Positions 1-30,579 of a DNA stretch of 35,018 nt are shown here, piece after piece. A model generated the notes under the pieces. That model saw only the letters and a program-made list of their open reading frames with translations. It did no database searches and had not been told where the DNA came from. How positions within the stretch are numbered: position 1 is the stretch's first letter; every line of letters begins with the position of its first letter. Where the stretch lies: positions 1 through 35,018 of the forward strand of contig WFSA01000141.1 of NCBI GenBank assembly GCA_015486215.1, written 5' to 3'. This DNA is from Anaerolineae bacterium. Lineage in GTDB: Bacteria > Chloroflexota > Anaerolineae > Promineifilales > Promineifilaceae. The translations under genes and the position numbers were made by a program.

Positions 1-151
1 CCATATCTTGATAAGCGGTGTCTAAATCATGATAAATGACATGGGGACGCACTAAATCTTCAATAAAACGATCAATACGATTACGACCAATGACGGCATA
101 CAACCCTTCATAAACTTGTTCATCAAGGGTCACCGTTAATTGTTTCTGCAT
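1..151 (-). CDS. Antitoxin-like ribbon protein, C-terminally cut by window edge
   Basis: The minus strand reads ATG at 149-151 and stays open to the window edge, giving 50 residues that begin MQKQLTVTLDEQVYEGLY and contain IGRNRIDRFIEDLVRPHV. This N-terminal pattern is typical of small antitoxins annotated as addiction-module antitoxins (RHH/AbrB-like) in Chloroflexota and cyanobacteria, usually followed by a MazF/PemK-type RNase. The toxin would lie beyond the left edge, so pairing is inference. The C-terminus is missing because the window ends, not because the gene is broken. The start is chosen because the family begins with this short beta strand and nothing coding lies upstream. Confidence 0.7.
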   Translation of the reverse strand, partial: MQKQLTVTLDEQVYEGLYAVIGRNRIDRFIEDLVRPHVIYHDLDTAYQDM

Positions 152-173
152 TATATTTTCTCCCGTGGTTCCA

Positions 174-206
174 AGAAGTCAGGGTTTTTGCAAAAGCCTG
201 ACTTTT
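174..206. terminator. Hairpin terminator-like repeat
   Basis: Arms AAGTCAGG (176-183) and CCTGACTT (197-204) enclose a T-rich/A-rich loop and are followed by TTT on the plus strand. The same hairpin occurs in perfect form at 3497-3530, next to the uvrA stop. It lies 48 bases past the vsr stop on the minus strand, so it may end the restriction-modification transcript. It could equally be a small dispersed repeat. Confidence 0.5.
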
Positions 207-253
207 ATTGCTCTGCATTTAATTTGGAGGGTTCCATACAAATTGGAATCAAC

Positions 254-670
254 TTAATGTAATTTATGAAACGTAATGGCTCGTAAAATCTGGTCAATAC
301 AATCATCAAAATTGTGCTTAATATCATACTCCCATAATCGAATGATAGACCATCCCTCTTGTGATAAAGCTTCGCTGACTTCTTTATCACGTTCTCTATT
401 TCTGGCTATTTTCTTTTCCCAATAGGATGTATTGGTTTTAGGCATTGTAAAACGAACTGGATGACCATGCCAAAAATCAGAATCAATGAAAACAATAACT
501 TTTTTACGCCGAAAAACAATATCTGGCTTGCCGATAATGTTATTGACATGTTTAGCAAAATAGATTTTCCTGCGCCGTAACTCTCGCATAACCATCAGCT
601 CAGGCTTTGTATTTTTTGAGCGGATATTACGCATATTCTTTTGCCGTTGTGCCTTTGTTAAATTATCCAT
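254..670 (-). CDS. vsr: Very short patch repair endonuclease (Vsr)
   Basis: A 138-residue protein of the usual Vsr length. The family nicks DNA 5' of a T:G mismatch made when 5-methylcytosine deaminates, starting repair at the methyltransferase's own sites. The sequence shows the family blocks in order: N-terminal KNMRNIRSKNTKPEL (about 12-26), GKPDIVF with the metal-binding Asp (about 47-53), the FWHGH block (about 66-70) with the catalytic His, and a late IIRLWEYDI strand. It is the last gene of a three-gene operon and overlaps the upstream endonuclease gene by 8 bases. That context fits its job of protecting sites modified by the C5 methyltransferase two genes upstream. Base composition is AT-rich like the rest of the operon, suggesting joint acquisition. 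Identification is firm. Confidence 0.95.
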   Translation of the reverse strand: MDNLTKAQRQKNMRNIRSKNTKPELMVMRELRRRKIYFAKHVNNIIGKPDIVFRRKKVIVFIDSDFWHGHPVRFTMPKTNTSYWEKKIARNRERDKEVSEALSQEGWSIIRLWEYDIKHNFDDCIDQILRAITFHKLH

Positions 671-1652
671 CCTGCGGCGGCGAAAAATCCATCAAGTAGT
701 TTTCATCATCCACTTTGTAAAAGTCCACATCAGTCCGCCCATACCGTAGAAGGTCTTCCTTCGTGACAAATTGTCCGTCCGACAGGCCAAGCCGCTTACG
801 AAAGTATCTTCCCAACAAGCTGTTATTATGCGGGGTCTCAATAGCTTTTGCGCTTTGCTGCGCCCGACGACAAATCAAAGTGTCATTATCGTCAGTGTGT
901 ACCGTAAAATGCTGAGGCGGCAGTGGAAAGAAATCACTGTTATAAACTTTTGCTTTCAACGGGATATACGCTTGATTACGCTCCCGTTTGTATTCAAACC
1001 GATGCCCCCAATTTAAGCTTGAGCGCGGAGCAACATCATTATACCTGCTGCTGATGAAGGATACACAAACATGATCAGGATCGTCATCGGCCAGCTTCGT
1101 ATCAACAGATGAATCATCAAGAGGTTGGGTTTTGCGTTGCTGACGGGCATCATAACGGCTCTTAAATGCTTGAATAAACTTATCAGCATCTGGAGACGTA
1201 CATGAAATTGTGTCACCTGCCAACGACTGGAAATAATCAAATCCATCGGCGGCACTGCATGGAATCATCAACTCCCGCTGGGCATTGCCAAATGCACGCT
1301 GTGAATAATTTGCAGACCCCATGAACCCAGTGACAGGGTGGTTGTCATTAAACCATGCGTACAGTTTTGAATGAACAGGCGGCGGCGTTCGTATGTAACT
1401 ACATTCAAAAGAACCTGCGAAATCATGCTGTACCAATTTTTGAAAACCACGATGATTAACTTGTGACAATCCGCTCTGAGCTGTCATTCCAACAATCAAA
1501 TGGACATTGATATGTATCTTTTTACTGTGTAATTTTTGAATATGATGAAAGGTCATTGCTGACGTGGCATAACCAGAAACAATATACAGAGTATTGGCAC
1601 CATTATGGGGAGGTTTGATTAGAATTTCTTGAAACAGGTTGGATGACATCAT
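663..1652 (-). CDS. NgoFVII-like type II restriction endonuclease (PLD fold + B3-like domain)
   Basis: A 329-residue protein. The N-terminal half carries the phospholipase-D signature, HSKLYAWF near residue 105 followed by GSANYSQRAFGNAQRE, which in BfiI and NgoFVII relatives forms a metal-independent nuclease active site. The C-terminal half, from SSLNWG near residue 210 through QAYIPL, FFP, the AIETPHNNSLLGRYFRKRLGL block and YGRTDVDFYKV, matches the NgoFVII family's B3-like DNA-recognition domain. Members studied cut GC-rich sequences (NgoFVII: GCSGC), but specificity here is unknown. The ATG shares one base with the methyltransferase stop codon and the 3' end overlaps vsr, so the three genes are translationally coupled. 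It should protect the cell from unmodified foreign DNA. The family call is strong from motif order; the target is not readable. Confidence 0.85.
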   Translation of the reverse strand: MMSSNLFQEILIKPPHNGANTLYIVSGYATSAMTFHHIQKLHSKKIHINVHLIVGMTAQSGLSQVNHRGFQKLVQHDFAGSFECSYIRTPPPVHSKLYAWFNDNHPVTGFMGSANYSQRAFGNAQRELMIPCSAADGFDYFQSLAGDTISCTSPDADKFIQAFKSRYDARQQRKTQPLDDSSVDTKLADDDPDHVCVSFISSRYNDVAPRSSLNWGHRFEYKRERNQAYIPLKAKVYNSDFFPLPPQHFTVHTDDNDTLICRRAQQSAKAIETPHNNSLLGRYFRKRLGLSDGQFVTKEDLLRYGRTDVDFYKVDDENYLMDFSPPQDG

Positions 1653-2785
1653 TATTTGTTGACCCCGACATTATATTCAGCTTTGGGTTCTAGCAATCTT
1701 TGGGTATAGCTTATATTAGGAGCTATTGAAGGGTATTCTATTCCTGCAAAACTTTTTAGTAATGCTTCAAAAATAATTCGTACCCCTTCTGATGGGACTG
1801 CCATACCAATTTGTTTCCGAACACTTTCTTTAGAACCTTGAAAGATAAAATTATCAGGGAAAGTTTGCAGGCGCGCCCTCTCCCGATTTGTTAAGGCACG
1901 GTTTTCACTCCAATGATACACATGCGTCCCGCCGCCACCGCTTCCTGTGACAGTGTATGACGGCCGTTCTGGAGTAAGTCTTTTATAAATTTGGCTTATT
2001 TTTGCCCCTTTTACGTTTAATTGTAAATGTTCGGGTATATCGGCGGTGAAAGCGTTTTCGCCCGGCTTTATGTATTTTAGACGTTCTACAACAGTTGCGG
2101 CGTGTCTGGTTAATTCGCTGTTTGGAGCATCTACTGGAATAGGCGGGTTTTCAATTGCATTACGGCTGGAGACATCAATGTCACGATAAGGATCGGGAGA
2201 TGGTACACGGAAACGAACATCTAAGTCCGAACGAATCCCAATAATAATGATTCTATGCCGTGCTTGGGGTACACCATACTTTTCAAATTTATATAGATGG
2301 GGCGTTACAATATATCCAGATTGTTGTAACTCTTCTAAAATAGTTTGAAACGCTTGTCCCTCATTGGAGTTCCGCAAACCGCCGACATTTTCGGCTAAGA
2401 ACCACTTTGGTCTAAATTTCCAAAGGGCTTTTACACCGTAGGTATATAATGGTCCATAAACGCCGTCTGTTCCTTTTTGTTCGCCTACAATACTGAAATC
2501 ATTACAGGGAAAGCCAAAAGCAAGGCCGTCAATATCAGAAATCTGTGCCAGAATATCATAATCAAGTTTTTTTATATCATGGCAAATAACCGACTCAGGG
2601 GTATCAGGACTAAGATTATAACGGTATGTTTCGCATGTATCTGTGTCGTAATCAGTTGCCCAAGCATGTTCTATCGACATACTGTTGCCATTTACGCCGA
2701 TTCGGGCATTTTTTGCGCCTAATCCGATGCCGCCTGGTCCGCAAAATAGTTCACCTAATTTGAAAGTCGTGTTTGAATTATCCAT
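1652..2785 (-). CDS. DNA (cytosine-5) methyltransferase of a type II R-M system
   Basis: 377 residues from the chosen ATG. Motif I is GELFCGPGGIGLG near the N-terminus. Motif IV is GFPCNDFS with the catalytic Cys (PCN instead of the commoner PCQ). Motif VI is ENV, motif VIII QARHRIII, motif IX RLTPERPSYTVTGSG and motif X GMAVPS, so the full set is in canonical order. It should methylate cytosine at the recognition site of the downstream endonuclease. A longer in-frame start exists at 2956, but those extra 57 residues run through a repeat and low-complexity stretch and precede motif I by too much. The ATG at 2783-2785 puts motif I at residue 9, as usual. The stop overlaps the endonuclease start (TAATG). 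Composition is AT-rich compared with uvrA next door. Confidence 0.92.
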   Translation of the reverse strand: MDNSNTTFKLGELFCGPGGIGLGAKNARIGVNGNSMSIEHAWATDYDTDTCETYRYNLSPDTPESVICHDIKKLDYDILAQISDIDGLAFGFPCNDFSIVGEQKGTDGVYGPLYTYGVKALWKFRPKWFLAENVGGLRNSNEGQAFQTILEELQQSGYIVTPHLYKFEKYGVPQARHRIIIIGIRSDLDVRFRVPSPDPYRDIDVSSRNAIENPPIPVDAPNSELTRHAATVVERLKYIKPGENAFTADIPEHLQLNVKGAKISQIYKRLTPERPSYTVTGSGGGGTHVYHWSENRALTNRERARLQTFPDNFIFQGSKESVRKQIGMAVPSEGVRIIFEALLKSFAGIEYPSIAPNISYTQRLLEPKAEYNVGVNK

Positions 2786-2900
2786 GATTGTATTGTAACA
2801 CTGATGAATTATAAATGCAGCCCATTGTGAATGGCAGACACAACGGCCGTTTCCCACCCCACCTCCCTCTCTAAACCCATCTCCCTTTTCCCCCCAGAAA

Positions 2901-2985
2901 AAAACATGAAGACATTTCATATAAAACATGAAGACATTTTGAAAAAATGTCTTCATGTTTCTTTCAAAATGTCTTCATGTTTTTA
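2901..2985. repeat. Four-copy nested inverted repeat (two AAACATGAAGACATTT, then two reverse copies)
   Basis: Two direct copies of AACATGAAGACATTT (about 2903-2917 and 2925-2939) face two reverse copies (about 2944-2959 and 2968-2983). Together they can fold into one long hairpin or two alternative ones. It lies between the HU stop (2993) and the methyltransferase start (2785), all genes reading leftward. It may be the HU terminator, an operator controlling the R-M operon, or both. No separate controller protein gene is seen. Confidence 0.7.
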
Positions 2986-2992
2986 GTGACAC

Positions 2993-3376
2993 CTACGCAT
3001 CTTTCTCAAATCTGGCGTTGGCGACCGCTTCCTTTAACTCTCTGCTCGGCGTAAAGCGTGGCGTAACCTTGATGATATTGTTCACCGACACCTCCGCCTC
3101 TGTTGCTGACCCTTCGGTTTTGATGGCAAGACGGAACGAGCCGAGTGCGCCTAGTTCAACGATGTTACCATCTTCAAGCAGTTGGGGAATAATTTCAAGC
3201 AATGTCTCGATGACGGCGGCCGTATCGCCCGGGCTAACGGTGGATACTTGCGCGATCCGCTTGCTCAATTGGCGCATCGTGATGCGCCCTGAGCTTTTAT
3301 AAGATGGATAAAATTTGCGCGGTGCAGTTAAATCTCTGGGGTTTACTCTACTGACAACATTATACTTTGCAGACAT
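2993..3376 (-). CDS. HU/IHF-family DNA-binding protein (HU-HIG type)
   Basis: A 127-residue protein. About 27 N-terminal residues rich in PR and KFYP precede the HU fold: GRITMRQLSKRIAQ, then VIETLLEIIPQLLEDGNIVELGALGSFRL (helices and first strands), then a VNNIIKVTPRFTPSRELKE C-terminal strand-helix. The N-terminal extension and the GSFRL block resemble the HU-HIG group of bacterial histone-like proteins rather than classic 90-residue HU. It probably binds and bends DNA in the nucleoid. The start is supported by a GGGAGG ribosome site just upstream. It is separate from the R-M genes downstream, because an 85-base inverted repeat lies between them. Its partners are not visible. Confidence 0.85.
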   Translation of the reverse strand: MSAKYNVVSRVNPRDLTAPRKFYPSYKSSGRITMRQLSKRIAQVSTVSPGDTAAVIETLLEIIPQLLEDGNIVELGALGSFRLAIKTEGSATEAEVSVNNIIKVTPRFTPSRELKEAVANARFEKDA

Positions 3377-3496
3377 GGTTTTTACCTCCCATGATCATCA
3401 TGTGGATTAAAGGTTGGCGACCTTGATGTTGGCCTCCCAACCAAATACCATTTAATCATAGGAGATGTTGATCGGCATGTCAACTGGACAGAAACC

Positions 3497-3530
3497 AGAA
3501 GTCAGGCTTTTTGCAAAAAGCCTGACTTCT
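3497..3530. terminator. Perfect 16-bp hairpin after uvrA
   Basis: Arms 3497-3512 and 3515-3530 are perfectly complementary with a GC loop. The stem core AGTCAGGC/GCCTGACT is the same as in the hairpin at 174-206. It starts 3 bases past the uvrA stop on the minus strand. The A/T tracts lie inside the stem, so it could work in both directions. Confidence 0.65.
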
Positions 3531-3533
3531 TAC

Positions 3534-6419
3534 TCACTCCCCCAAATACGCCTTCAAAAACTGCCCCGTATACGACCCCGCAACCGCCGCCACATCCTCC
3601 GGAGTCCCTTGCGCGACGATGTGTCCCCCTTTCTCGCCCCCTTCCGGCCCCAAGTCCACGATGTGGTCAGCCACTTTGATGATGTCCAGATTATGCTCAA
3701 TAATCACCACCGTGTTCCCCTTGTCCACCAGCTTATCCAGCGCACTGATCAAACGGGCGACATCATGCGAATGTAAGCCAACCGATGGCTCATCAAGAAT
3801 GTAAATCGTCCGCCCCGTCGCAATTTTCGACAGTTCGCGGCTCAATTTGATGCGTTGCGCCTCGCCGCCGCTTAATGTCGGCGCGGGCTGCCCAAGATGG
3901 ATGTAATCCAGCCCCACATCGGAAAGCGTTTTCAGCTTGCGATAAATGCGCGGAATGTTCTCGAAAAACTGTAACGCCTCCGCCACGCTCAACTCCAATA
4001 CTTGGGCGATGTTCAGCCCTTTGTACGTCACTTGCAACGTCTCACGGTTGTAGCGTGCGCCGCGACAAATGTCGCACGGCACATAAATATCGGGCAAGAA
4101 TTGCATCTCGATTTGATTCTGTCCCTGTCCTGCACACGCCTCACAACGGCCGCCTTTCACATTAAAACTAAAACGGCCGGGCTTGTACCCCCGTATTTTG
4201 CTCTCTGGCAGCCCCGCGAACAGTTCGCGCATCGGGTTGAACAGGTTGGTATAGGTGGCCGGATTGGATCGCGGCGTGCGCCCGATGGGGCTTTGATCAA
4301 TCTCGATGATTTTGTCCAGCAGTTCCAACCCTTGAATGTCCCGATGTTTGCCCGGCAGATCGCGTGAGCGGTAAAAATGTTGGTACAGCCGCTTGCTCAA
4401 AATCTCGATCAAAAATGAGCTTTTGCCGCTACCGCTGACCCCTGTGATACAACTCATCGTGCCTAGCGGGATGGCGATGTCTACATCTTTGAGGTTGTTT
4501 TCCTGTGCGCCGATGATTTGCAAATAGCCGTTCTCATGGGGACGGCGTTGGGCGGGGATGGGGATGCGTAAACGGCCGTTTAAATACCCCCCCGTCAATG
4601 AATCCACATTCGCTTCAATATCCGCCAACGTCCCCTGCGCCACCACTTCGCCGCCCAGCTTGCCCGCGCCCGGCCCCAAGTCGATGATCCAATCCGCCGC
4701 CCGCATGGTGTCCTCGTCATGCTCCACAACCAGCACCGTATTGCCCAAGTCGCGCATCCGTTGCAGCGTCTTGATCAGCCGCGCATTGTCCCGCTGATGC
4801 AGGCCGATGGACGGCTCGTCCAGCACATACAACACGCCCATCAACTGGCTGCCAATCTGGGTCGCCAGTCGAATCCGTTGTGCCTCGCCGCCGCTCAAAC
4901 TGCCCGCCATCCGATTCAACGTCAAATAATCCAGCCCGACATTGATCATAAATTGTAGCCGTTCGCGTATCTCTTTCAGGATGGATTTGGCGATCATCTG
5001 CTGTCGCGCTGTCAGGGGAGATGTGGCCTCGTCGGCCAACGCCGTCGCCCATTCTAAAATATCGTTGATGGCTTGATGGGTGATCTCGCTGATGTTCTTG
5101 TCGGCAATCGTCACCGCCAGCGAGACGGGGCGTAACCGTGTGCCATTGCACGCTTCACACGGCCGATTGACCATGAACTCTTCCAATTTTTTGCGTACAT
5201 AATCGGAAGTCGTCTCCCGATACCGCCGCTCTAAATTGCGGATAACCCCTTCATATTTGGCATTATACTCGCGCACATCCCCGCCCCGATTAACGTAGCG
5301 GATAGGGATCATCTCGTCACCGCTTCCATATAGAATGATGGCGCGTTGTTGGGCGGTCAGCTTTTTGACGGCGACGTTGATAGGGATATTGCAGCGAACG
5401 GCCGTTGATTTCAACAACTGCCAATAATAGCCCACCTTATCATCCGTCGGCCAGCCCACAATCGCCCCCTTTTCCAACGACAACCGCTTGTTGGGAATGA
5501 CCAAATCGGGGTCAATCGCCTTCTTCACCCCCAACCCTTCGCAAGCGGGACAAGCCCCGTGCGGACTGTTGAAGCTGAACGTGCGCGGCTCAATTTCGGG
5601 AATGCTGGTGCCATCATACGGGCAGTACAAATGCTCCGAATACAGATGATCGACGGGAGTATCGCGGTCGGTTACGTCGTTGATGATGACCACGCCGCCG
5701 CCCAGCCGCAACGCCGTCTCAACCGAATCGTTCAGCCGGCTGCGTGCCGCCGCCGCTTCCTCGCTCTGGTCGTCGGCGGCGTGACGCAGGACTAAGCGGT
5801 CAACAATCACCTCGATATTATGGTTTTTGTACCGATCCAACTTGATCTCTTCGTCAATGCTGTACAACTCGCCATCCACCCGCACGCGCACAAAACCAAA
5901 TCTGCGAACATCTTCAAACACGGATTGATGGTGTCCTTTGCGATCTTTGATGAGGGGGGCGAGAATTTGGATGCGGCTGTCGGCGGGCATCATCTGCATC
6001 TGCGCCACAATCTGCTCGGCCGATTGCGGCATGACAGGGCGGCCGCATTCAGGGCAATGCGGCGTTCCCGCCCGCGCATAGAAAAGGCGCAGATAATCGT
6101 AAATCTCCGTCACCGTTCCCACCGTCGAGCGCGGATTGCGGCTCACCCCTTTCTGATCAATGGAAACAGCCGGGCTAAGCCCCTCAATTTGATCCACGTC
6201 AGGCTTTTCCATCTGCCCCAAAAATTGGCGTGCATACGCTGACAACGACTCCACATACCGCCGCTGCCCTTCGGCAAAGATAGTATCAAACGCCAATGAT
6301 GATTTGCCAGAGCCAGACAGCCCCGTGATGACGACTAACTGGTCGCGCGGTATTTCGATATTGATATTTTTCAAATTATGCTCGCGTGCGCCGCGAATGA
6401 TAATTTTGTCTAGGGACAT
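3534..6419 (-). CDS. uvrA: Excinuclease ABC subunit A
   Basis: 961 residues, full length for UvrA, the damage-sensing ABC ATPase of nucleotide excision repair, which loads UvrB at lesions. The first ATP site has [14 protein letters not shown] near residue 33, the signature [17 protein letters not shown] and the Walker [17 protein letters not shown]. The second has [25 protein letters not shown] and [13 protein letters not shown]. Zinc-binding cysteine pairs are visible at CPECG, in CPYDG...CPACEGLG, at CEACNGTR and in CEACAGQG...[15 protein letters not shown] is a typical block near the last zinc module. It is monocistronic, ends in a hairpin, and has an H-type palindromic mobile element 34 bases upstream of its start. 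Many genomes regulate uvrA through LexA, but I see no convincing operator here. Confidence 0.98.
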
Positions 6420-6453
6420 AGGGAATTTCTCGCTTGTATTGGTTAAATAGATA

Positions 6454-6565
6454 GCGTGTGTTTCAAATGAGTTGAAGCAAAGTGACTGTCACGGGGCGAA
6501 CGGATTTGGTTTACCCGAAACTATACGCCCCGTGACTGTCACTTCTACTAAAATAAAACACACCC
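6454..6565. mobile_element. MITE-like element, family H (112 bp)
   Basis: The ends GCGTGTGTTT and AAACACACCC are inverted repeats with one mismatch. The 9-base sequence AAATAGATA is present exactly on both sides (6445-6453 and 6566-6574), which is a clear target duplication. Inside is a perfect 18-bp inverted repeat (6481-6498 and 6526-6543) containing GTGACTGTCAC. There is no coding capacity. It sits in the uvrA promoter region. Confidence 0.8.
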
Positions 6566-26429: not shown

Positions 26430-26654
26430 TTACATATAGCTACGACTTTCACGCACAAACGCAACAATTTCCTCGCTAGTCAAATCCACATCAATACCAT
26501 CAATATCAAAAGGGGATTTATTCGTTGTTTCAGGAGAAATGACAAACAGTTGTCCATCTTTTCTTTTTATACGCACCATACCGTCACGCATAACTTTTTC
26601 GAGTATAGATGCCAAATTTTGACGGGCTTCGGAATAGGTATAAACAGCACTCAT
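26430..26654 (-). CDS. Phd/YefM-type antitoxin
   Basis: 74 residues. YTYSEARQNLASILEKVMRDGMVRIKRKDGQLFVI is the Phd/YefM N-terminal fold that binds operator DNA. The C-terminal SPFDIDGIDVDLTSEEIVAFVRESR would wrap the toxin. The ATG overlaps the stop of the upstream PIN toxin by 4 bases, so the pair is coupled, with toxin gene first and antitoxin second, the reverse of the usual VapBC order. Similar in design to the pair at 29953-30579. Confidence 0.88.
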   Translation of the reverse strand: MSAVYTYSEARQNLASILEKVMRDGMVRIKRKDGQLFVISPETTNKSPFDIDGIDVDLTSEEIVAFVRESRSYM

Positions 26655-27052
26655 GATGTCACCTCCACAATTTGCGCTTTCACAGATTTAGCAGAATTGA
26701 TTAAACTTGTATCAAGGGATAATAGCGGTGATTTATATTTGATAGCACAACGAATCAAGTACGCATCATAGGCGTAGATATTTAATTTGTCTGCAAGCTT
26801 GATCGTTTCTTCAAGCTCCACATCAACCATACGGATTGGTATCCTTTGATACACCCGCATCGCTTTAACAGCATCTATGACAGAAATACGGTTGCGTTTA
26901 AGCATGGCAGAAAAGGCATTCCCAATCTCCCAATGAATGGAATGGGGAGCAATCAAATCAACATTCCGAGTTAACGCTATTAACCTCTCTTTTTTGGGTT
27001 CATTTGTAATAATTGCAATTAAAACTGAAGCATCTACAACGATGTTAGCCAT
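26651..27052 (-). CDS. vapC: VapC-type PIN-domain toxin
   Basis: 133 residues, typical of VapC, an endoribonuclease that cuts tRNA or rRNA. The acidic active-site set is visible: Asp7 in IVVDASVLIA, Glu in HWEIGNAFSAML (about 42), Asp in NIYAYDAYLIRCA (about 96) and Asp in LLSLDTSL (about 114). All four positions are intact, so the toxin should be active. It precedes its Phd-type antitoxin with a 4-base overlap. It shares the EIGNA and NIYAYDAY blocks with the second PIN toxin at 30190, so the two are probably paralogues brought in as related cassettes. Confidence 0.92.
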   Translation of the reverse strand: MANIVVDASVLIAIITNEPKKERLIALTRNVDLIAPHSIHWEIGNAFSAMLKRNRISVIDAVKAMRVYQRIPIRMVDVELEETIKLADKLNIYAYDAYLIRCAIKYKSPLLSLDTSLINSAKSVKAQIVEVTS

Positions 27053-30189: not shown

Positions 30190-30579
30190 TTACTCCAATA
30201 TCTCAATACCAAGTTCAATAGCAACTTGTTTCATACGTTTATCCAATGTAAGCAACGGGCAGGAATAGGTTAAGGCGCATTGTAAAAAATAAGCGTCATA
30301 CGCATAGATATTAAACCTGATTGCAATTCGTAATGCTTGTTGGATATTTATGGCAACGAGCCGCACTGAGATTTGCTCGGCGGCTTCAAACGCAGACAAC
30401 GCTTCACTTGGTGTAAGCGTTTTGCGTTTGATTATGGATGATAACGCATTGCCAATTTCATATGGCAATATCTCTGGAGAGATGATGTCAACAGTTGCGG
30501 TAAGTTGAATAATCCTTTTCTTTTCTGGTTCATCCAAAGCGACTGCTAAAAATATGTTTGTATCAGCTATGATGTTCAT
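30190..30579 (-). CDS. vapC: VapC-type PIN-domain toxin, second copy
   Basis: 129 residues. Active-site acids are present: Asp6 in IIADTNIFLA, Glu in LPYEIGNALSSII (about 41), Asp in NIYAYDAYFLQCA (about 96) and Asp in LLTLDKRM (about 114). Expected function is an RNase toxin held in check by the Phd-type protein encoded directly downstream. It shares blocks with the PIN toxin at 26651. No repeat block separates toxin and antitoxin, so the two-gene unit behaves as one cassette between blocks 3 and 4. Confidence 0.92.
   Translation of the reverse strand: MNIIADTNIFLAVALDEPEKKRIIQLTATVDIISPEILPYEIGNALSSIIKRKTLTPSEALSAFEAAEQISVRLVAINIQQALRIAIRFNIYAYDAYFLQCALTYSCPLLTLDKRMKQVAIELGIEILE

Follow-up and report, generated by a model that had tools for sequence, protein, structure and literature searches.

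Introduction

The closest described relatives of the system reported here are restriction endonucleases that join a PLD nuclease domain to a B3 DNA-binding domain. BfiI, which recognizes ACTGGG, is ATP independent, and passages of PMC4081073 describe it as a metal-independent endonuclease. According to the parts of PMC4267653 drawn on here, R.CglI and R.NgoAVII bind GCCGC and neither cut nor nick DNA without the N protein, a DEAD-Z1 ATPase, and ATP; their cutting also needs a divalent metal and is absent in EDTA, where ATP hydrolysis is prevented. CglI and NgoAVII have thereby raised the question why a nuclease resembling BfiI should require a motor at all.

Here we analyze the window, the entire contig WFSA01000141.1 (C141; 35,018 bases) of an Anaerolineae bacterium of the family Promineifilaceae (assembly GCA_015486215.1), whose 4.13-Mb genome lies in 341 contigs. 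On its minus strand it carries an operon for a methyltransferase (M), a compact NgoFVII-type endonuclease (R), and a Vsr mismatch endonuclease (V), whose main feature is the absent helicase. An original prediction, made from the sequence alone, had described studied members of this endonuclease class as active without metal, which is true of BfiI but not of CglI and NgoAVII, with their need for helicase, ATP, and divalent metal (PMC4267653, as above); it did not mention the absent helicase. We consider it fairly probable, on sequence grounds, that these genes form a mobile Type II restriction-modification operon and that its PLD-B3 endonuclease acts with no helicase, as BfiI does.

Results

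A methyltransferase-endonuclease-Vsr operon without a helicase gene

The operon consists of three overlapping open reading frames (ORFs; Table 1), M and R sharing 1 nt and R and V sharing 8 nt. As the original prediction held, all three match their families above the model cut-offs: M matches DNA_methylase (PF00145, 243.3 bits, cut-off 22) and the PADLOC model MTase_II (380 bits), Vsr matches PF03852 (77.9 bits, cut-off 27) and TIGR00632 (125.4 versus 97.85), and R matches both RE_NgoFVII (PF09565, 136.6 bits) and RE_NgoFVII_C (PF20731, 121.1 bits), exceeding the cut-off of 23.8 for each more than fivefold. The ORFs of the operon include no Z1 helicase or ATPase gene, and Z1 (PF10593) has no match in the host genome (G000, 95.96% complete). 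The same search, which covered Z1 and not other motors, gave no match in any of 10 genomes with a compact R (the host, G012, those of loci L003 and L004, G784, G824, G663, G640, G678, and G865). The positive control, C. glutamicum, was detected every time, and three N proteins from helicase-bearing loci (see below) score 75.7 to 79.3 bits, so that PF10593 should detect the helicases of compact R loci if they were present.

Table 1. Features of the operon and its upstream region (positions in the window)
Feature	Position	Strand	Basis or remark
V: Vsr mismatch endonuclease, 138 aa, without two cysteines of E. coli Vsr	254..670	-	PF03852, TIGR00632
R: compact NgoFVII-type restriction endonuclease, 329 aa, PLD nuclease + B3 DNA-binding domain	663..1652	-	PF09565 + PF20731
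B3 DNA-recognition domain of R, about residues 193-329	666..1076	-	PF20731 stretch at residues 203-315
Further active-site residue of R, E127	1272-1274	-	active-site alignment
Further active-site residue of R, N115	1308-1310	-	active-site alignment
HxK motif of R, H94-S95-K96	1365..1373	-	kept in 13/13 compact R without a helicase gene in the locus
M: C5-cytosine methyltransferase, 377 aa	1652..2785	-	PF00145, PADLOC MTase_II, motifs I, IV, VI, VIII, X
Sigma-70-like promoter match CTGCCA-18-TATAAT, weak	2808..2837	-	upstream of M
Imperfect inverted repeat, 85 nt: two direct 17-mers and their two inverted copies	2900..2984		between HU-type gene and M

The assignment of R to the PLD-fold, B3-bearing class is borne out by both Pfam domains and by fold. 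An AlphaFold2 model built from a 12-sequence alignment (predicted local distance difference test, pLDDT, 82.9) retrieves R.NgoAVII (4rct) first and BfiI (2c1l) second in Foldseek (E 4.8e-09). VIA-align superposes it on the NgoAVII B3-DNA structure 4rd5 with Z 15.6 over 138 residues (root-mean-square deviation, rmsd, 2.6) and on 2c1l with Z 11.6 over 158 residues (rmsd 3.5; row 18 of the matches). For full-length 4rct the rmsd is high (10.9), probably because of the placement of the domains, which lies beyond a monomer model. A broken active site, named in advance as a possible refutation, is not what the alignment gives: H94, K96, N115, and E127 are all kept, the site reading HSK..GSAN.

The locus shares with NgoAVII and CglI the two-domain R (NgoFVII N and C parts), the class of m5C methyltransferase, and the adjacency of R and M, and differs in having no Z1 ATPase in the operon, none found in the genome, and a Vsr; R is about 20% identical to 4rct, and M is 37% identical to that of the gonococcal NgoAVII locus (L046). 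With BfiI it shares the PLD and B3 architecture and fold and, by analogy, would share work without a helicase, whereas identity in the structural alignment is only 14 to 16%, another site is expected, and the window has a single cytosine methyltransferase plus Vsr.

Intact and lysine-less forms of the compact endonuclease

We collected relatives by a genome scan (2 loci), from viral contigs (13 loci, the same with queries A2 and A5) and phage records (2), and by a relatives search (G012); a plasmid search with the window R gave no match. Among 395 genomes around that of L004, 21 had a match, six of them (L004 included) with a full-length compact R, and the 15 weaker ones were excluded. Dropped as well were near copies (L015 and L017, like L014), re-fetched duplicates (L024-L029), B3-only loci (L022, L023), and weak or distant matches (L030-L045, L048, L049, L051-L053, L060-L066). 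The filtered set holds 20 full-length compact R proteins.

Thirteen of these 20 (the window, L003, L004, L008, L011, L012, L016, L021, and L055-L059) have no NgoAVII-type R or helicase in their stretch, and all 13 keep H94, K96, N115, and E127. Six (L009, L010, L013, L014, L019, and L020) have an NgoAVII-type R and a Z1 helicase as neighbors, and L018, where a contig end hides any helicase, was grouped with these by sequence. In all seven, Lys96 is replaced by Asn and Asn115 is lost; the altered motif reads HSN, HGN, HAN, HAN, KKN, and KRN in the six helicase loci and RSN in L018, and the neighboring NgoAVII-type R keeps HGK and GSAN in all six. In the R tree the two kinds form one split (100/100), and the lysine loss is, as far as these sequences tell, a single change followed by further decay and not many independent changes. 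L125, a compact R found later in a genome of the host's class and cut by a contig end, reads HAK..GSAN and has no Z1 in its genome, as this rule predicts.

The B3 part is the better conserved domain in both kinds, somewhat more so in the dead one. Invariant positions number 60 in B3 versus 20 in PLD in the lysine-less kind (n = 7) and 26 versus 19 in the active kind (n = 13), and mean identity in B3 and PLD is 67% and 40% in the dead kind, 54% and 38% in the active kind, and 51% and 29% between kinds. In the close pair L013/L014 the ratio of nonsynonymous to synonymous divergence (dN/dS) is 0.07 for PLD and 0.10 for B3, so that even the dead PLD domain is under selection there; in L019/L020 PLD differs twice as much as B3 (nonsynonymous proportion, pN, 0.38 versus 0.19, with dS saturated). 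We infer that the dead compact R would be a non-cutting subunit. Because all 13 helicase-free members keep the H/K/N/E residues and all seven others have lost the lysine with B3 conserved, the window R most likely cuts alone.

The two-R systems (L009, L010, and kin: NgoAVII-type R, Z1 helicase, compact R, M, and mostly Vsr) resemble the window in M (66 to 70% identical) and in the compact R (36 to 43% identical to the window R); they differ in that their compact R is without the catalytic lysine and in the presence of a second R and a helicase. No description of this active/dead split was found in the literature on NgoFVII-type systems and Vsr, mainly in the openings of abstracts.

The M-R-V order with overlapping ends recurs in L003 (a Spirochaetes metagenome-assembled genome, MAG), L004 (an Ignavibacteriales MAG), and L008 (a genome of the same family), and because it does so in three other genomes, the arrangement is not due to chance. 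L055 (G784) has the same set with M interrupted: about 1 kb, holding a 255-aa ORF with a NOV_C domain, splits M within L055:8010-10182, R and Vsr being open. Either an insertion or an error of the assembly may explain this interruption.

The methyltransferase, its likely site, and its viral relatives

M has the expected motifs in order: I (FCGPGG), IV (PCN, in GFPCNDFS), VI (ENV), VIII (QARHR), and X (GMAVP). The PCN in place of PCQ to which attention had been drawn is present; it is no oddity, since it is typical of the window's clade (22 of 22 methyltransferases), the other 12 of the 34 compared having PCQ. In the M tree, which omits one of the 22 PCN enzymes (L022), the 21 rows of the window clade (100/99) group at 100/100 with the clade that holds M of the gonococcal NgoAVII locus (94/89). 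The two-R loci are nested within the window clade, at a node (100/97) that comprises 10 helicase-free and 7 other loci and excludes L059, L012, L021, and L047. The tree is midpoint rooted and drew a program warning about meeting long branches, so that the direction from active to two-R loci rests partly on a dead site deriving from a live one.

Related methyltransferases act on GCSGC, GCWGC, GCAGC, GCCGC, and GCNGC, according to parts of PMC10734518. By analogy with these characterized sites, none of which we single out, M probably recognizes a site of the GC-N-GC kind.

A survey based on M gave 37 viral loci, several being contigs already collected. An active compact R is present in three (L088, L098, L117); a dead compact R with NgoAVII-type R and helicase in six; a dead compact R at a contig end in one (L100, the L018 contig); and an NgoAVII-type R with helicase and without compact R in six (L093, L101, L103, L104, L105, L115). 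L123 has an NgoAVII-type R and helicase together with a short piece of compact R and a second R/helicase copy (L123:4068-6993), which is broken into several short frames and adjoins the intact set. In four loci (L109, L111, L112, L113) M is followed by a B3-only protein (PF20731, 89.5 bits in L111), and in 16, some near contig ends, no R was seen by the models used. The B3-only proteins at L109:1418-1798, L111:3445-3888, and L113:3011-3454 have no recognized nuclease partner in the stretch; beside M, such viral proteins may possibly be decoys or regulators.

The window clade is, on the available sequences, not the sole branch without a motor. In L051 (a complete 9.3-kb Providencia plasmid), L048, and L064, M is accompanied by an NgoAVII-type R reading HGK..GSSN, with no helicase seen in the stretch. 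They are like the window in this M plus PLD-B3 R layout and differ in that R fits the NgoAVII-type model best and not the compact one, M is 37 to 43% identical and has PCQ, and Vsr was not found in the stretch. A motif search had indicated a Lys-to-Arg change in the L048 R, but this was spurious: the translated and aligned sequence has HGK. A Priestia megaterium plasmid locus (L053: M, a helix-turn-helix gene, an 'NgoFVII family' R, Vsr) also has an R with the family's B3 part followed by Vsr, and no Z1-kind helicase is annotated. There, only the C-terminal part of R matches the model, no HxK aligns, and M is 27% identical with PCQ; the nuclease part of this R may, from its sequence, be of another kind.

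Vsr

The AlphaFold2 model of Vsr (pLDDT 86.3) superposes on 1cw0 with Z 15.5 and rmsd 1.7 over 119 residues. Aligned with 1cw0, the window Vsr has Asp at the Cys position of GCFWH and WEY in place of WEC, and the E. coli-type cysteine site is absent. The cysteines changed here are zinc ligands in E. coli Vsr, and we do not treat them as defining the family. The form IDSDFWH (THGCFWH in E. coli) is found in five of six Vsr proteins of helicase-free loci, L003, L004, L008, and L055 sharing it. Vsr is present in six of 13 helicase-free loci and in five of six helicase loci, and because it is found in only part of both groups, these gene sets argue that it is an accessory.

Distribution, composition, and site frequencies

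R was found in 2 of 59 relatives and 3 of 298 genomes of the class (the host being counted in both), PF20731 in one of 400 genomes of the phylum, the host itself, and kin of R in the Spirochaetes and Ignavibacteriales MAGs of the genome scan. This patchy distribution supports transfer between lineages and is a better sign of it than composition, without dating it.

The operon was said to be AT rich, which agrees with its GC content of 41.5% versus 48.1% in a 20-contig sample. As proof of arrival we reject composition: 3 of 73 same-length windows are as low, and among 106 long sample ORFs (shadow ORFs included) the GC percentiles are 22nd for R, 15th for M, and 6th for Vsr. The claim that the operon is low in CGGCCG holds as a count (1, versus 76 in the window), and the deficit is weak, ACGGCCGT occurring once versus 4.1 times expected at the window rate (P ~0.08). 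For the proposed foreign composition and recent arrival this means that composition is suggestive at most, that patchy occurrence supports transfer, and that a date is not given by either.

The suggested depletion analysis was run on 210 kb (20 of 341 contigs, at most 20 kb each, with 2,682 N) plus the window from position 2786. Observed/expected ratios are 0.87 for GCSGC, 0.78 for GCWGC, and 0.84 for GCNGC. Strongly under-represented are GGWCC (0.15 of expectation), CCWGG (0.19), GGSCC (0.22), and CCGG (0.23), a pattern that points to other restriction systems having acted on this genome for long in its past. Site depletion was set aside as an indicator of specificity, saying little for GC-N-GC sites (0.78 to 0.87) beside these far lower values.

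The host genome is also rich in an iterated palindrome, AACGGCCGTT, with 3,261 copies in 4.13 Mb versus 7 for a reversed control. ACGGCCGT has 57 copies in the window (for example at 1960, 4572, and 11632), 30 of them inside 24 listed genes, and 362 copies in a 245-kb sample versus 20 for the next palindromic 8-mer. Counts of AACGGCCGTT within the host's family run from thousands through hundreds down to single digits, and in 24 genomes outside the family from 0 to 9. The palindrome resembles the cyanobacterial HIP1 (GCGATCGC); the main text of the HIP paper PMC4390886 has no match for CGGCCG or Chloroflex at word starts.

Surroundings of the operon

The minus-strand order is uvrA (6419-3534), an HU-type gene (3376-2993), the 85-nt hairpin, M, R, and Vsr. 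The stretch 2786-2992, which holds the hairpin, folds with z -6.6, and the repeat's sole match genome-wide is its own locus, on both strands. It is perhaps a terminator or attenuator; it is not among the sites listed by a terminator scan, and Rfam has no match in window positions 1-6500. As a conserved regulatory element it was rejected: eight leaders were folded (with no shuffled control), that of L008 giving -68 kcal/mol and the rest varying. Promoter-like sites of the type listed in Table 1 number 11 in positions 1-3600 versus 9.5 expected, so that the match alone is no evidence. Repeats beginning AGTCAGG (173-208 and 3497-3530) were tried as island borders and found insufficient, the genome having five pattern matches at four places; a perfect copy scores as a terminator. 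Elsewhere in the window are two PIN-domain proteins resembling VapC toxins (26651-27052 and 30190-30579) and the start of a short minus-strand gene truncated by the contig end (1-152), perhaps, judged by eye, an antitoxin gene.

Discussion

The window carries a real and, going by its genes, probably working restriction operon. In the mechanism that we propose, M would add a 5-methyl group to a cytosine in its site, probably one of the GC-N-GC kind, and R would dimerize via its PLD domains, the two HxK motifs together forming a single active site independent of metal and ATP. The B3 domain would bind the unmethylated site and R would cut at a short fixed distance, as BfiI does, while Vsr would nick T:G mismatches arising from deamination of methylated cytosines.

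Several observations weigh against an endonuclease that works without a helicase. BfiI is not the best structural match of R: 4rct stands above it in Foldseek, and VIA-align places several PLD proteins above it, including SauUSI (7clg, Z 15.1), an ATP-dependent enzyme. Because of the modest structural rank of BfiI and the rooting warning, our confidence in this reading and in the history proposed below is slightly lowered. The single split on the R tree makes the active/dead contrast one evolutionary observation and not 20, and GCSGC shows no marked depletion in the sampled genome (0.87). The assemblies are drafts in which a helicase may be unsequenced (completeness is given for three: 95.96% for G000, 97% for G012, and 81% for G865), and a motor protein other than Z1 could serve R.

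It is conceivable, though improbable, that the locus is a CglI/NgoAVII-type ATP-dependent system minus its helicase gene, with R reduced to an inactive relic and with M and Vsr retained for protection or an epigenetic role. R.CglI and R.NgoAVII indeed do not cut alone, in the parts of PMC4267653 cited above, and M with Vsr is plausible as a methylation module, 16 of the 37 viral M loci being without a visible R (some near contig ends); yet the four catalytic residues are kept in all 13 helicase-free loci, PLD dN/dS is 0.17 for the window versus L008 and for L004 versus L055 (dS >1 in both), and L003, L004, and L008 show the same overlap between the M and R ends. The same precedent of motor dependence (PMC4267653, same parts) would allow R to be served in trans by a helicase or motor from an unrelated host gene, which we think unlikely given that Z1 has no match in any of the 10 genomes, other motors lying outside that search, and that hosts spanning several phyla make reliance on a host partner less likely. 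That Vsr is not a repair enzyme and instead the strand-cutting partner of R in a composite nuclease we regard as very unlikely: its model retrieves the Vsr fold and, less strongly, other nucleases of the restriction-enzyme type, its gene overlaps R by 8 nt, and it is without the E. coli-type cysteines, but Vsr was not found in seven of the 13 helicase-free loci with an intact R (the L058 sequence extends only about 1 kb past R), so that R seems independent of it.

We lean, if only slightly, toward a history in which the cutting role was handed over: an NgoAVII-type nuclease, together with its ATPase motor, would have been added to an autonomous PLD-B3 enzyme, and this older enzyme would then have lost its catalytic lysine and been maintained by selection as a non-cutting DNA-reading or assembly subunit, some viral contigs keeping B3 alone beside M and the window representing the motor-free state. 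The family has been described before; what is new, within the literature searched, is the branch that carries Vsr and no motor, and how it relates to the dead-copy branch. A clade with related M genes and no motor found, next to one whose compact R is dead where a motor-linked nuclease is present, makes the gain of ATP dependence testable using few genes, and the helicase-free members may be simple metal-independent cutters of laboratory use.

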